From a virus, in the IMG/VR virus record IMGVR_UViG_3300035183_001329, positions 1 to 42,989 of that record: DNA of 42,989 nucleotides. The stretch is one strand, 5' to 3'. The translations under genes were made by a program, and so were the position numbers. This document shows positions 8,563-33,823 of this stretch, one piece after another (positions within the stretch are counted from its first letter, which is position 1; every line of letters begins with the position of its first letter). The notes beneath the pieces are model-generated. The model was not told where the DNA came from, did no database searches, and saw only the letters and a program-made list of their open reading frames with translations.

Positions 8563-11256
8563 GTGAAAACAAAAATAAAAGAAACATCTAGAAAAAATTT
8601 AATTAGTAAAACAAAGAAAACTTTTATTTTAGATACAAATGTTTTATTATCTGATGCAGAATGTTTAAGATCATTTCAAAACAATGATATTGTTTTACCT
8701 TTAGTTGTTATTGAAGAATTAGATAGATTTAAAGATAAACAAGATGATGTTGGAAAAAACGCAAGAGAAATTTCAAGGCAACTAATTGAACTTGTAAAAG
8801 AAAATAAAAATGATGTTAAAACTGGAATTTCTCTCGGAAAGAAATTAGGAAAACTAAAAATTTTAAATCAAAAAGATTTAGAATCTAATGTAATAATTTC
8901 AATTCCAGAGTTAGATTACTCTAAAGGAGATAATAAAATTGTTCAATTTTGTTTAGAATATAAACAAAAATTTTCAAATGAAAAAGTTATTCTTGTTACT
9001 AGAGATTTACTTTTAAGAATCAAAGCTATTTCTGTTGGTATTGAATGCGAAGACTATAAAAAACTTTCTAAAGATATAAGTAAAATCCTTAATATGCCAG
9101 CATCTGAATCTGAGTTTTATACTGGTATTAAGACTTTTAAAGTCTCGAAAGAAGAAATTGATAAATTTTATCAAGACAAAAATAATATAGTCTTAACAGA
9201 AGAAGAAGAAAAAGGTTTATATCCAAATCAATTTATTGTATTTGAATCTGATGACTCAGACGCTAAAATTGCAGGAAGATTCTTGCAACCTGGTAAACCT
9301 CTTCGTTATGTTCCTTTTCAAGCCAATGCATGGAACATAAAAAGTAAAAATATGGAACAAGCATTTTTGTTAGATCTTCTTCTTGATGATTCTATTAGCT
9401 TAGTAACTATTAGTTCTAGGTCAGGAGCAGGAAAAACATTAATTTCTCTTGCGGCGGCTCTTGAATTAACTTTAACCAAAAGAAAATACAATAAAATCTT
9501 AATTACAAGAAATATTCAAGCTCTTGGGAAAGATATAGGTGCTCTTCCTGGACCACAACCTTTAGATGCAAAGATTTTAACTCCAACTGGATGGACTACT
9601 ATGGGAAATCTTAAAATTGGAGATCAAGTTATTTCTAGGGATGGAAAGGCAACAAAAGTTATTGGAATTTATCCAAAAGGAATAAAAGAAGTTTTTAGAA
9701 TTAAAACAACAGAAGGACAAATTACCGAATGCTGCGAAGACCATTTATGGTTAACAAAAACTTTTGAGGAGAAGAAAACAAATAAGCCTGGAAAAATTCG
9801 TTCTACAAAAGAAATTATTAATTCACTTAAAACTATTACAAACAATCATAAAATTCCAAATCATTATTTACCAAGAAATAAACCCATAGAATTTTCAAAT
9901 GTTATAAAATTTGAACTTCCTCCTTATACATTAGGAGCACTTTTAGCAAATGGATTAATGTCCAGAACAAGTATTAGTATATCAAAACAAAATAAAGAAA
10001 TACTAGAAAGAATTCAGCATGAAATTTCTCCTTTAGGCTTAGAATTAAAAAAAATTAACAATCATGCAAGTTACACTTTTATTGATAAAAACAAAAAATC
10101 AAACAAAAAAGCAAATTTTATTAAAATTGTAAATACATTAACATCTGAAGAAAAAATTTATTCATCAGTTGGTGAAGCTGAAAAAGTATTAGGAATAAAA
10201 AAAACTACAATAGCTTCACGATGTAAAAATAATTCTATAATAGATGGACTTTCTTTTTCATTTGTTGAAAATCATAACAATTTTTCAAATAGAATTAAAA
10301 ATATTTTAAATAAATTGAATTTAATTGATAAAAAAGCACATGAAAAATTTATACCTAAAGAATATATTTACAACGCTTCAATAGAAGATAGAATATCTCT
10401 TTTGCAAGGTTTGATAGATATTCATGGTACTATTAAAAAAAATGGAAATATTTCATTTAAAACAATTTCAGAAACTTTAAAAAATAACTTTATTGAATTA
10501 ATTTATTCTTTAGGCGGTAAAGCTATTGCTTATAAAAGAAAACATAAAGCAAATAAAATAAAAAATATTTCCAATAACTACTTTAGTTACGATATAAGAA
10601 TTAATTTACCAAACGAAATAAATCCTTTTTTTCTTGATAAAAAAGTTTATCATAAAAAATTAAATTATATGTATGATGTAGGAATTGTTTCTATTGATTC
10701 AATCGGACAAAAACCTGTTCAATGTATTAAAGTTGAAAATGAAGAACATTTATATATAACTGATAATTTTATTGTAACTCATAATACTCTTGGAGAAAAA
10801 ATGGAACCATGGATTGCTCCATTTAAAGATAACCTTGAATTTCTTTTAAATGAAAATATAGATGATGCAATCGCTAAAGGTGCAACTAAATCAAAGAAAA
10901 ATGAAAATCTAAAACATTCTTTTGCAATGCAAGATCTATTTGATCGTGGTATAATTCAAATTGAAGCTACTACGTTTATTAGAGGTCGTTCAATTCCAAA
11001 ATGTATATTTTTGGTTGACGAAAGCCAAAACCTTAGTTTGCATGAAATGAAAACAATATTAACAAGAGTTGGAGAAGGAACAAAAATTGTTCTTTTAGGA
11101 GATCATAATCAAATTGATAATACTTATTTGAATAAATTTACAAACGGACTTGTTATTGCAATTGAAAAATTTAAAGGTGAAGAAATAGCAGGTCACATTT
11201 CTCTCGTTAAAGGTGAAAGAAGTAAACTCGCAACAGTCGCAAGTGAACTTCTTTAA
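8563..11256 (+). CDS. phoH: PIN-PhoH ATPase/nuclease interrupted by an intein
   Basis: The 897-codon product is a PIN domain joined to a PhoH ATPase with an intein inside. FILDTNVLL (about residues 21-29) opens the PIN domain, with further acidic residues at VVIEELDRF and VTRDLLL. SRSGAGKT (around 285-292) is the P-loop. After the intein come CIFLVDESQNL (Walker B), LTRVGEGTKIVLLGD and HNQID, all typical of PhoH. PIN-PhoH proteins of bacteria act as RNA helicase-nucleases; phage PhoH function is unsettled. The intein lies between the P-loop and Walker B, so the ATPase cannot form before splicing. Removing residues 331-741 restores LPG-TLGEKMEPW, matching intact PhoH, and gives a 486-residue protein. 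The GTG start is supported by AAAGGA at 8551-8556. Confidence 0.9.
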   Translation: MKTKIKETSRKNLISKTKKTFILDTNVLLSDAECLRSFQNNDIVLPLVVIEELDRFKDKQDDVGKNAREISRQLIELVKENKNDVKTGISLGKKLGKLKILNQKDLESNVIISIPELDYSKGDNKIVQFCLEYKQKFSNEKVILVTRDLLLRIKAISVGIECEDYKKLSKDISKILNMPASESEFYTGIKTFKVSKEEIDKFYQDKNNIVLTEEEEKGLYPNQFIVFESDDSDAKIAGRFLQPGKPLRYVPFQANAWNIKSKNMEQAFLLDLLLDDSISLVTISSRSGAGKTLISLAAALELTLTKRKYNKILITRNIQALGKDIGALPGPQPLDAKILTPTGWTTMGNLKIGDQVISRDGKATKVIGIYPKGIKEVFRIKTTEGQITECCEDHLWLTKTFEEKKTNKPGKIRSTKEIINSLKTITNNHKIPNHYLPRNKPIEFSNVIKFELPPYTLGALLANGLMSRTSISISKQNKEILERIQHEISPLGLELKKINNHASYTFIDKNKKSNKKANFIKIVNTLTSEEKIYSSVGEAEKVLGIKKTTIASRCKNNSIIDGLSFSFVENHNNFSNRIKNILNKLNLIDKKAHEKFIPKEYIYNASIEDRISLLQGLIDIHGTIKKNGNISFKTISETLKNNFIELIYSLGGKAIAYKRKHKANKIKNISNNYFSYDIRINLPNEINPFFLDKKVYHKKLNYMYDVGIVSIDSIGQKPVQCIKVENEEHLYITDNFIVTHNTLGEKMEPWIAPFKDNLEFLLNENIDDAIAKGATKSKKNENLKHSFAMQDLFDRGIIQIEATTFIRGRSIPKCIFLVDESQNLSLHEMKTILTRVGEGTKIVLLGDHNQIDNTYLNKFTNGLVIAIEKFKGEEIAGHISLVKGERSKLATVASELL
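9553..10785 (+). other. Intein in PhoH, class 3 type, with degenerate LAGLIDADG endonuclease
   Basis: This covers residues 331-741 of the PhoH precursor (411 residues). It begins with Pro (PQPLDAKILTPTGWTTMG) after LPG and ends VTHN before Thr742. A non-nucleophilic first residue, Trp396 in the block B segment CEDHLWLT, Cys721 in block F (VQCIKVEN), Thr739 just before the terminal His-Asn, and Thr as first C-extein residue are the recognised hallmarks of class 3 inteins, which start splicing from the block F Cys. The endonuclease part has LGALLANG (457-464) and LLQGLIDIHG (613-622). In both, the acidic residue before the last Gly is replaced (Asn463, His621), so cleavage is probably lost. An IENR1/NUMOD1-like helix-turn-helix lies at about 521-566. 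Confidence 0.85.
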
Positions 11257-23708: not shown

Positions 23709-23732
23709 TAAATAAAAATTAAATATTTTTAT

Positions 23733-23772
23733 AAAGCCAAGTATATAAAGGATACTTGGCTTTATTTTTTTG
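23733..23772 (+). terminator. Rho-independent terminator after the SSB gene
   Basis: AAAGCCAAGTAT (23733-23744), a 7-base loop, ATACTTGGCTTT (23752-23763), then a T-rich run. The 12-bp stem is perfect. It is the clearest terminator in the window and makes the SSB gene a single transcription unit. Confidence 0.88.
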
Positions 23773-23814: not shown

Positions 23815-24603
23815 ATGGCAAACTTTAAAAAGACCAGTAAGCAAGAAATCCCACTAGCTCCAAAAACAACAAATCCAATTGACTCAAAAGAACAGCCTAA
23901 TTCAAAAAAAATGGCAATAATTTCTGGAATTACTAAAGAAATAAATAAAACTCGTGGTGAGAAGATTGCATTTAATCTTAAAACAGATGATGATGCACCA
24001 ACTAATGTAAAGAATTGGTTTTCTACTACGGCAATTAAACTTGATTATATTATTTCAAATAAAAGAAATGGTGGGATTCCAGAAGGAAGAATAATAGAAA
24101 TTTTTGGAGAACCATCTTCAGGTAAATCAACACTTGCTCAAACAATTTGTGCTCAAGCCCAAAAAAATGGAGCAATAGCTGTCTATATTGATTCAGAAAA
24201 TGCAACATCTGTAGAAAATTTATCAATGCTTGGAGTCAATACAGATGAATTAATTTTCGTTCAAGAACAGTGTGTGGAAGACACATTTCAATTAATAGAA
24301 CAGATTATTACTTCTGTTAAGAACCAAGATAATGATATGCCTGTAATCATCGTATGGGATTCAATAGCGGCATCTGTTTCTAGAGCAGAGTTAGAGGCAA
24401 CTTATGAACAACAGCAAATTGGAATTAAAGCTAGAGCCCTTAGCAAAGGTATTATGAAAGTTAATCAGATTTTAAAAGATAAAAGAGTTACTCTTTTACT
24501 TGTTAATCAAACAAGACAAAAAATTGGAATCTTACATGGAGATGCTTGTGTTTCTCCAGAAACTAAAGTAAAAATAAGAACAAAGTTATCTAGTAAATGC
24601 TAA
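23815..24603 (+). CDS. recA: RecA recombinase, N-terminal part, with 18-residue N-intein
   Basis: This encodes the first half of a RecA-type recombinase. Residues 1-244 hold a RecA core: WFSTTAIKLDYIISN, GRIIEIFGEPSSGKST (Walker A), AVYIDSENA, PVIIVWDSIAA (Walker B), and RVTLLLVNQTRQKIGILHGDA, which ends in the L2 loop. From Cys245 the sequence becomes an intein start (CVSPETKVKIR) and stops after 18 residues. The recA sequence resumes in the next gene at TTTPGG, exactly where RecA should continue. The arrangement is a split intein with a very short N-part, so the two products should be joined by trans-splicing into a 420-residue RecA that catalyses strand exchange. A simple frameshift is excluded by the intein ends. 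Confidence 0.9.
   Translation: MANFKKTSKQEIPLAPKTTNPIDSKEQPNSKKMAIISGITKEINKTRGEKIAFNLKTDDDAPTNVKNWFSTTAIKLDYIISNKRNGGIPEGRIIEIFGEPSSGKSTLAQTICAQAQKNGAIAVYIDSENATSVENLSMLGVNTDELIFVQEQCVEDTFQLIEQIITSVKNQDNDMPVIIVWDSIAASVSRAELEATYEQQQIGIKARALSKGIMKVNQILKDKRVTLLLVNQTRQKIGILHGDACVSPETKVKIRTKLSSKC
24547..24600 (+). other. N-intein (18 residues) of the split RecA intein
   Basis: Cys245 to Cys262 of the RecA N-fragment. CVSPETKVKIR is a standard block A (nucleophilic Cys1, then Thr-x-Val-x-Ile-Arg). Canonical N-inteins have about 100 residues; very short ones are known only from atypically split inteins (AceL, VidaL types). Confidence 0.85.
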
Positions 24604-24616
24604 TGGTTATTAGCAT
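24597..24616 (+). other. Hairpin over the N-fragment stop codon
   Basis: ATGCTAAT, GGTT, ATTAGCAT: a perfect 8-bp stem with a 4-base loop. The TAA stop of the N-fragment lies inside the 5' arm. It is not followed by a T-run. Its role is unknown. Confidence 0.45.
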
Positions 24617-24752
24617 ATTAGTTCTAAAACTAAAAATAAAAGATAAAATAAGAGTGCAAATTTTATTTTAAATAAATATAAAATGTTAATAATTTAAAAA
24701 TTTAATATATTAAAATTAAATAAAATATAAAGAAAATAGAAAGAATTATAAA

Positions 24753-25130
24753 ATGGATATAAAAAATACTCTTTATAAAGAAGAAGAAATTACTTTAAAA
24801 GAATTATTTGAGAGATATGGAATTTCATCATTTGATGAAGTTGGAATGTTATCAATAGATGATGATATTGAAATTGAAAGTTATGATTTTGTTGAAAATA
24901 AACGAGTTTGGAGTAAACTAACTGATTTAGTAGTTAAACCATCTGTTGATACTTTTTATAGTTTAGGTTCTTTAAAAGGAACTGCAAACCATAAAGTTTG
25001 GTTTAATGATGGATGGATAGAATTAAAGGACCATCCTAACTCTGTTAGAGTTGATGGGAAAATGCATGTTTTAGATCTTTCAGTTGAAAGAACAAATTGT
25101 TATTTAGCTGAAGGTCAAATAAATCATAAT
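24753..25130 (+). other. C-intein (126 residues) of the split RecA intein
   Basis: It contains everything from just after block A to the terminal His-Asn, and no endonuclease domain. ITLKELFERYG near residue 13 is the segment that usually follows block A within ten or so residues in contiguous phage inteins, which places the split next to block A. Confidence 0.85.
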
Positions 25131-25661
25131 ACTACAACTCCTGGTGGTATGGCAATTCCTTTTGCTGCATCGGTTAGACTACGTGTTTATACTCCACAGA
25201 AAATAAAAGAAATTGTTGATAAACAAGAGATTATAAAAGGAATACAAGTTAAAGTGGCAACAATTAAAAATAAGGTTGCAAGACCTTATAGACAAACAGA
25301 ACTCCAAATTATTTATGGTAAAGGTATAAATGATTATGAAATTCTTTTTGACGACTTAAGAGCTTTTTGTGAAACTCCAAAATATAAAGAAAACCGAGAA
25401 AAATATGCAATAGATGGAATATGTGGGAATATTTCTGGAACTGGAGCTTGGAAAAAAATTGAATTAATTGATTGTTTTACTGGAGAAGTTAAATCAGAAA
25501 AAAATTTTTACAAAGCAGATTTTGGTACAATTTTTAATGATTCTAAATATAAAGATTATATTCTTTTATTATGTGATGGTGCTTTTATCTTAAAAGATAA
25601 TGAAAAAGACGAAAACTCTATCCCAAGTGGAATTCAAGTTGATGAGCATAGTTTAGATTAA
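24753..25661 (+). CDS. recA: RecA recombinase, C-terminal part, preceded by 126-residue C-intein
   Basis: The product starts with an intein fragment (residues 1-126) and continues as the C-terminal part of RecA (127-302). The intein part shows block B (GTANHKVW, Thr77 and His80), block F (VLDLSVERTNCYLAEG) and the terminal His125-Asn126. RecA resumes as TTTPGGMAIPFAASVRLRVY and then IKNKVARPYRQTELQIIYGKGI, the usual late core segment, and ends in a phage-specific acidic tail. Thr127 would be the +1 nucleophile. The gene has its own ATG, 149 bases after the N-fragment stop. Both halves are needed for a working recombinase. Confidence 0.9.
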   Translation: MDIKNTLYKEEEITLKELFERYGISSFDEVGMLSIDDDIEIESYDFVENKRVWSKLTDLVVKPSVDTFYSLGSLKGTANHKVWFNDGWIELKDHPNSVRVDGKMHVLDLSVERTNCYLAEGQINHNTTTPGGMAIPFAASVRLRVYTPQKIKEIVDKQEIIKGIQVKVATIKNKVARPYRQTELQIIYGKGINDYEILFDDLRAFCETPKYKENREKYAIDGICGNISGTGAWKKIELIDCFTGEVKSEKNFYKADFGTIFNDSKYKDYILLLCDGAFILKDNEKDENSIPSGIQVDEHSLD

Positions 25662-31969: not shown

Positions 31970-33823
31970 ATGAGAGAACCTAAAAAATATGTAAATCTTC
32001 ATGCTCATTCCAATGGAAGCATTGGTGATGCTATTGGATTACCTCAGGATCATTTTGATTTTGCTCAAAAAAATGAACTTTTAGCCCATGCGATTACAGA
32101 TCATGGAAATATGAATACCTTTTCGCATTCATATAAATATTATGAAAATCTAAAAAAAGATGAAATCCCTTTTAAGATCCTCTATGGAATAGAAGCTTAT
32201 TTTATTCCTTCTTTGTATGAATGGTCTTTATTAAAAGAAGCAAATATAAAACAAAAAGAACTTGAAAAACAACTTAAAAAGGCAAGTAAAACAAAATCAA
32301 AAAAACAAATAGAAGATTTGATTGTTCTTGATGAAATTGAAGAAAAGCGAAAACAAGATTTTTTTGAAGAAGTTGCTAATTTTGAACTCCTAAATAAAGA
32401 AGTTGCTTTGCTAAAAGATGTTGAAGGAAATATTGAAACTACTGTTGTTGAAAATGAAGAAGAAACAAAATCTAATAAAGTAAGAGATCCTCTTCGATCA
32501 AGAAGTCATTTAGTTTTATTAGCAAAAAACACAGTAGGACTTCATAGTTTGTTTAAACTTACATCTCTTTCATACAAAGATGGATTTTATTTTTATCCTC
32601 GTATAGATTTTGATCTTTTAAAACAAAATTCAAATGGAAATTTAATAGCAAGTAGTGCTTGTCTCGGCGGCGAACCAAATAAGATTATTATTAATCATTT
32701 TTTAGATTTAAATCTTAGTATGGAAGATTATAAGTCAAATATTAATAAACTTTTATCTTATAAATTCGATGTTATACAAAAAGAGCTTAAATTATTAGTA
32801 GAGAAATTCGTAGATGCTTTAGGCGGCAACCAGGAAGATTTTTATCTCGAAATACAGTTTAACAAACTTCCTTATCAGCATATTCTAAATTATCATCTTA
32901 TCGAGCTATCAAAACAAACAGGAATAAAACTTATTGCAACTGCAGACTGCCATTACCCTAATCCAGAGTTTTGGAAAGAAAGAATAATTTATAAAATGCT
33001 TGCTCATATGTCAATGAATAAGCTTAAAGAAATAGACTCAAGTGTTATACCACAAAAAATTGAAGAACTTGAACACGAATTATATCCTAAAAATGCAAAA
33101 CAAATGTGGGATGCTTACAAATATTATTGCGTTAATGAATATCCTGAAATATATTCTGAAGAATATCATGAATTAGTTTGTGATGCTATTGAAAGAACAC
33201 ATGATATAGCTTTTGATATTATTGATAAAAAAATAGAGTTTGATAAAACTCCAAAACTTCCTAGCCTTAATAAACTAATCCCACAAAATAAGCTTGAAGA
33301 TCTTAAATCTCAAGGATTATCTGAAGATGAAATAAGTTTTAATGAGCTAGTTGATTTGGTAATGGATGGATTAGAATCTAAAAAAAAATCAGAAGATGAA
33401 AAATATATTGATCGTGCTCTTGAAGAACTTGATGTTATCAAACACTTAAAACTTGAGAAATATTTTCTAACTTGTGCGCAGAGCCTTAATCTAATTAGAA
33501 AGAAAATGCTATTAGGGGCAGGAAGAGGATGTTTTCTTCCAGGAACTAAAGTTTATACACCCTATTCTAAAAATAGGAAACAAAAAATTGAAGATTTCAA
33601 AAATGTAAAAGACGAAAAGTGGGTTTATACTCATGATGGTTCTATTCAAAAGGTTTTGAAATGTTGGGAATATGATATTAATGAAGAAATTATTGAATTA
33701 GAGTTTGAAGATGGTACACTCGTTTCGTGTACAAAAGATCATAAATTTCTTACAAAAAATCGTGGTTGGGTTACCGCAGACGATATAAAAGATGATGATG
33801 AATTTGAAAAAGTATGTTTTTAA
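31970..33823 (+). CDS. dnaE: DNA polymerase III alpha (DnaE), N-terminal half, ending in an N-intein
   Basis: Residues 1-520 are the N-terminal half of a C-family polymerase. The PHP domain has NLHAHSNGS (His11, His13), AITDHGNM, YGIEAYF and SHLVLLAKN, with ATADCHYP further on. The segment MLLGAGRG (to 520) is the palm GxGRG motif, after which the family continues with Ser-Ala-Ala-Gly. Here Cys521 starts an intein instead and the frame stops 97 residues later. The catalytic aspartates would lie in the missing half, and no gene in this window encodes it. A charged insertion (about 84-170, Lys/Glu coiled coil) interrupts the PHP domain. The parts should be joined by trans-splicing. Confidence 0.9.
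   Translation: MREPKKYVNLHAHSNGSIGDAIGLPQDHFDFAQKNELLAHAITDHGNMNTFSHSYKYYENLKKDEIPFKILYGIEAYFIPSLYEWSLLKEANIKQKELEKQLKKASKTKSKKQIEDLIVLDEIEEKRKQDFFEEVANFELLNKEVALLKDVEGNIETTVVENEEETKSNKVRDPLRSRSHLVLLAKNTVGLHSLFKLTSLSYKDGFYFYPRIDFDLLKQNSNGNLIASSACLGGEPNKIIINHFLDLNLSMEDYKSNINKLLSYKFDVIQKELKLLVEKFVDALGGNQEDFYLEIQFNKLPYQHILNYHLIELSKQTGIKLIATADCHYPNPEFWKERIIYKMLAHMSMNKLKEIDSSVIPQKIEELEHELYPKNAKQMWDAYKYYCVNEYPEIYSEEYHELVCDAIERTHDIAFDIIDKKIEFDKTPKLPSLNKLIPQNKLEDLKSQGLSEDEISFNELVDLVMDGLESKKKSEDEKYIDRALEELDVIKHLKLEKYFLTCAQSLNLIRKKMLLGAGRGCFLPGTKVYTPYSKNRKQKIEDFKNVKDEKWVYTHDGSIQKVLKCWEYDINEEIIELEFEDGTLVSCTKDHKFLTKNRGWVTADDIKDDDEFEKVCF
33530..33820 (+). other. N-intein (97 residues) of a split DnaE intein
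   Basis: It starts CFLPGTKVYT (block A, Cys1) and has GTLVSCTKDHKFLT (block B, Thr and His) and GWVTADDI, then ends a few residues later as a canonical split N-intein does. The insertion point before the Ser of GRGS differs from a random break. No matching C-intein (block F and terminal His-Asn) is in the window. Confidence 0.88.

Follow-up and report, generated by a model that had tools for sequence, protein, structure and literature searches.

The gene for a RecA/UvsX recombinase in IMG/VR record IMGVR_UViG_3300035183_001329, a 42,989-nt (43-kb) fragment of a phage genome called the window here, is interrupted by an intein that is divided between two open reading frames (ORFs) directly next to its block A. 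The locus is best read as a trans-splicing, atypically split intein that has lost its homing nuclease, a reading to which we assign a probability of about 90%. The splicing reaction and the order of events are the presumed part of this reading; the anatomy of the locus, the catalytic residues, the seamless joined RecA, purifying selection, the nuclease of relatives and its remnant in the window are established at the level of sequence.

The first ORF (23815–24603; plus strand, like every feature of the locus) encodes a RecA N-extein of 244 residues (23815–24546) that ends with KIGILHGDA in the L2 loop, followed by the 18-residue N-intein CVSPETKVKIRTKLSSKC (24547–24600), which comprises block A with Cys1, and by a stop codon (24601–24603). 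The second ORF (24753–25661) begins 149 nt past this stop at its own ATG and reads through a 126-residue C-intein (24753–25130; MDIKNTLYK...AEGQINHN) into TTTPGGMAIPF, the beginning of a 176-residue RecA C-extein that starts with Thr+1 (25131–25658; stop codon 25659–25661). The Pfam RecA profile is matched over positions 6–201 by the first ORF (E-value 4e-39), which also matches PHROG 97 (UvsX-like recombinase), and over positions 200–262 by the second (E-value 5e-13), an exact complement. The last 25 residues of the C-intein match Pfam Intein_splicing (E-value 2.5e-4, below the curated cut-off). Joining of the halves yields a RecA of 420 residues with no insertion or deletion at the junction relative to the intein-free relative L016 (HGDA-TTTPGG versus GSDP-TTTPGG). 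A preliminary description of this DNA had given 18 and 126 intein residues, the latter ending in His-Asn, a 149-nt spacer and a 420-residue product, with the expected RecA sequence TTTPGG directly after the intein; the ORF coordinates, the translations and the alignment with L016 agree with it exactly. Chance is excluded by the exact complementarity of the Pfam matches, the match to the splicing profile and the occurrence of an identically placed split in independent relatives, and two ORFs with exactly complementary host halves identify the intein as naturally split. The halves lie in different frames and the spacer (24604–24752) contains stop codons in all three, so that neither read-through nor one frameshift joins them.

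All positions of a class 1 intein are present, namely Cys1, T77-x-x-H80 in block B, D108 in block F, H125-N126 in block G, and Thr+1. His80, Asp108, His125 and Asn126 are invariant in 35 family members, and Cys1 and Pro4 occur in 36 of 36 N-parts at this insertion site. The model of a contiguous homologue (L037/L003, 133 residues) is a complete intein with a predicted local distance difference test score (pLDDT) of 97.4 and matches the RadA intein in the PDB (4e2t; template modelling score of 0.82). Its strands at residues 7–12 and 15–20, connected by a turn at 13–14, place the break of the window intein at the turn between β-strands 2 and 3; the N-part ends after β-strand 2 of the model. The C-part modelled alone (pLDDT 93) exhibits the intein fold without the first strands, and all of its top PDB matches are inteins. 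Comparison of the window with its nearest kin, L002/L012, at a synonymous divergence (dS) of 0.6–0.9 gives ratios of nonsynonymous to synonymous divergence (dN/dS) of 0.055 for the RecA N-part, 0.23 for the N-intein (based on 17 codons), 0.12 for the C-intein and 0.11 for the RecA C-part, which indicates that the C-intein is constrained as strongly as the RecA C-part. The catalytic positions, the models and purifying selection thus bear out the earlier proposal of a split intein next to block A in the L2 loop, and support its assignment as a naturally split class 1 intein of the S1 type, in RecA L2-loop codons and under purifying selection. The S1 type is defined by a split directly after β-strand 2 and an N-part of ~15–35 residues (PMC13014065), and the 18-residue N-part agrees with both. 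The canonical (S0) arrangement of an N-part of ~100 residues and a C-part of ~35–50 residues does not fit the 18 and 126 residues found here.

The gap between the halves of split relatives usually holds a nuclease gene encoding ~290–365 residues, either Vsr-like or HNH. Fourteen aligned gap nucleases share a motif of the type IECYGDYWHANP and match the Vsr endonuclease 1cw0 (E-value 1.5e-5) and, weakly, the EDxHD nuclease I-Bth0305I (3r3p; E-value 0.03); HNH nucleases are found in another lineage. Most gap-nuclease stop codons overlap the ATG of the C-part by a few bases, which suggests translational coupling. In the window, only the 3′ end of a Vsr-like gene is left, in decayed form (24677–24752). 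Local alignment of these 76 nt, which close the spacer, to the 3′ end of the nuclease gene of L012, where this gene is intact, gives a score of 32 compared with 17.3 ± 2.5 for shuffles, none of 500 reaching it. The 5′ side of the spacer shows no significant alignment to the nuclease start (score reached by 100 of 500 shuffles), and the claim is confined to the 3′ part. The spacer, whose length had been reported correctly, is therefore not plain intergenic DNA, and a lost homing nuclease explains it. Nuclease tails are also retained in five otherwise short gaps that lack a nuclease (L034, L294, L046, L310 and L276); together with the spacer remnant, they make nuclease loss the best reading of the window. 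In L012 (6779–7756), no stop separates the nuclease ORF from the C-intein and the RecA C-part, which follow in the same frame and would give ~628 residues if translation started at the nuclease ATG. The nuclease is fused there next to block A, not at the usual insertion point.

In the proposed mechanism, two precursors would be made, RecA(1–244) carrying the 18-residue N-terminal intein part (IntN) and the 126-residue C-terminal part (IntC) followed by RecA(245–420). The N-part would dock into the near-complete HINT fold of the C-part, supplying the first strands that this fold lacks, Cys1 would attack the carbonyl at position −1, the chain would be passed to Thr+1, and Asn126 would cyclise. 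The product would be one 420-residue recombinase with an intact L2 loop. Presumably, a Vsr-like homing-nuclease gene entered the intein gene at the β-turn after strand 2 and thereby split it, and loss of the nuclease in the window phage would have left RecA obligatorily encoded by two genes, with a scar of 149 nt between them.

Trans-splicing is preferred because of the catalytic residues, the intein models, the constraint on the C-intein and the lack of a second recA in five related contigs (55–172 kb, the largest being that of the nearest relative), an intact copy elsewhere having been named in the preliminary description as grounds for doubt. Several points weigh against it. The last six N-part residues differ among relatives, the N-intein dN/dS comes from few codons, and the ribosome-binding site upstream of 24753 is weak, if not clearly weaker than those of other window genes; as the window is a fragment, an intact recA may also lie elsewhere in its own genome. 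Decay has occurred in the locus, as the spacer testifies, and it may have reached the intein itself, so that the halves no longer splice and RecA function is either lost or provided by halves that assemble unjoined, as those of NrdA and gp43 do; split phage enzymes that work without covalent joining are documented (PMC2988022). However, Cys1, the block B histidine, the block F aspartate and the terminal His-Asn are invariant, and the dN/dS of the C-intein matches that of the C-extein, whereas a non-functional intein would drift. The break also falls in the DNA-binding L2 loop, where, from general knowledge of RecA, an unspliced 126-residue insert is expected to be harmful. Decay of the intein is accordingly considered improbable.

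That the interruption is removed by an RNA intron or by recoding, with a contiguous intein then splicing in cis, is less probable still. Both ORFs run in the same direction and lie near each other, and a phage recA with a group I intron is known as the host of I-Bth0305I. Rfam, however, finds nothing in the window, including the spacer, and a group I intron was rejected on this basis. The C-part has its own ATG, recoding would have to contend with different frames and spacer stops in every frame, and the gaps of relatives hold nuclease genes of 0.8–1.1 kb whose stops overlap the C-part ATG in the layout of translational coupling. The window is a single metagenomic contig, and an assembly or sequencing artefact could in principle join or break recA; the same split in the independent contig L002/L012 (86–90% protein identity) and in more than 20 further distinct members from other samples rules out an assembly artefact and leaves this explanation with almost no weight.

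The family was assembled by scans of viral contigs and automatic classification, with inteins at the window's site counted when both halves were visible. It comprises 36 distinct inteins, of which 24 are split adjacent to block A and 12 are contiguous; many other genes are empty at the site. A further split member, L097, lies outside the 36; having no Pro4, it escaped the motif search. Among relatives of the window, the same codons are empty in L015 and L016, carry a contiguous intein in L013 and L014, and a split one in L012, L007–L010 and others. Split N-parts range from 14 to 28 residues, three having 14: CVTPDTKIKIRRRK (L034), CVTPDTRIRIRKYV (L142) and CVHPETKSRIRRRI (L247). Another insertion site, 6–7 codons upstream (KIG/C...SHN/TMYGDP), holds three contiguous and two split inteins, and L020 (1202–2380; the same as L004 and L203) bears two inteins in one recA seven codons apart, contiguous at KIG/C and block-A-split at GDPS/C. 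The C-inteins of L242 (contiguous) and L249 (preceded by a stop and starting at an ATG of its own) are nearly identical. This pair appears to reflect a split or fusion of very recent date, the only evidence for the split state being the stop just before the C-part ATG of L249, whose RecA N-part lies beyond its contig end. No match to the C-intein of the window or to a more central family member was found in 50,697 GenBank phage records, and no relative was found in GTDB genome contigs. The family of block-A-split RecA inteins is thus large, previously unsurveyed and much larger than described; the window adds a new intein to this atypically split kind, as had been suggested, but it is one among dozens found in phages from metagenomes.

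In a tree of 47 C-parts at the window's site, the split or contiguous state changes at least nine times, five changes being forced by well-supported branches; inclusion of the upstream site raises these counts to 12 and eight. The window and L002, both split, belong to a supported five-member clade with the contiguous L037 and L042. The counts carry no direction, and repeated splitting alone would also fit. A plausible scenario, for and against which the weight appears evenly balanced, is that the block-A split is recurrent and possibly reversible: Vsr-like or HNH homing-nuclease genes enter at the β2/β3 turn and break the gene, their decay leaves nuclease-free splits like that of the window, and some splits may re-fuse into contiguous mini-inteins. 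L002/L012, in which the nuclease frame continues into the C-intein, is a possible intermediate.

Natural splits at this position are already known from other inteins. VidaL is cysteine-dependent, with an IntN of 16 residues and a natural split right after β-strand 2, the S1 position (PMC13014065), and resembles the window intein in all these respects, its N-part being likewise very short. PolB16 OarG has an IntN of 15 residues, reported as the shortest characterised (PMC10189870, PMC13014065). It shares the split position, the tiny N-part and a metagenomic origin with the window intein, but resides in a PolB polymerase and has Ser1/Ser+1 and an IntC of 168 residues in place of Cys1/Thr+1 and 126 residues. 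The N-part of the window, described earlier as atypically short, is indeed far from the canonical ~100 residues, but both of these are shorter still. AceL TerL and GOS TerL also have natural N-terminal splits, but with longer IntN parts (25 and 37 residues), a split after the first helix (S2) and a terminase host (PMC13014065, PMC11766414). The canonical Npu DnaE and gp41-1 have the trans-splicing HINT fold and blocks A, B, F and G in common with the window intein, but their break lies where nucleases are usually inserted and leaves N-parts of ~100 residues. Fractured genes, reportedly described by Dassa et al. in 2009, are said to have split-intein halves flanking a free-standing homing nuclease; relatives of the window have this arrangement, with only a remnant left in the window itself. 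VidaL, presumably the intein UvsX-2 from a phage of Lake Vida, would then be a possible member of the same family; the literature examined contains no link between VidaL and UvsX. What appears to be new is the family size, the 14-residue N-parts, the coexistence at a single site of genes with a split intein, a contiguous one or none, and the nuclease remnants, which record how nuclease-free splits come about.

A perfect inverted repeat, TGCTAATGGTTATTAGCA (24598–24615), spans the stop codon of the N-part with no T run after it; a terminator scan lists none there, and this candidate was rejected. A strong terminator-like hairpin lies directly upstream of the recA start (23731–23765), and recA with its second half may accordingly form its own transcription unit.

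Other inteins are present in the window. The DNA polymerase III alpha gene (31970–33823) ends in a canonical split N-intein (GRG/CFLPGTKVYT..., 97 residues, then a stop). In the 172-kb relative G001 (L321, L322), the whole polymerase is spread across four genes, the first ~16 kb from the rest: gene 1 carries an N-intein, gene 2 a C-intein, an internal contiguous intein and an N-intein, gene 3 an apparent C-intein followed by an N-intein, and gene 4 a C-intein. To be assembled, this replicative polymerase would have to undergo three splicing events in trans and one in cis. A PhoH-like gene of the window (8563–11256) contains a 411-residue intein (residues 331–741) without Cys, Ser or Thr at position 1 (PQPLDAK...), with a block F cysteine (VQCIKVE), block B TECCEDHLW and a LAGLIDADG-type nuclease match; it looks like a class 3 intein. 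Many more intein matches occur in G001 and G002 (8 and 9 with PF14890), which suggests that this phage group is intein-rich.

About four characterised natural inteins with very short N-parts appear in the literature examined, and these are used or have been developed as protein-labelling tools. The present family contributes some two dozen further examples from a single host protein, and its three 14-residue N-parts fall below the reported 15-residue minimum. The split, contiguous and empty relatives constitute natural matched sets for partner recognition by 14–18-residue peptides, for the origin of splits from nuclease insertion and for their reversibility. If trans-splicing occurs as proposed, the central recombinase of these phages would exist only after trans-splicing.
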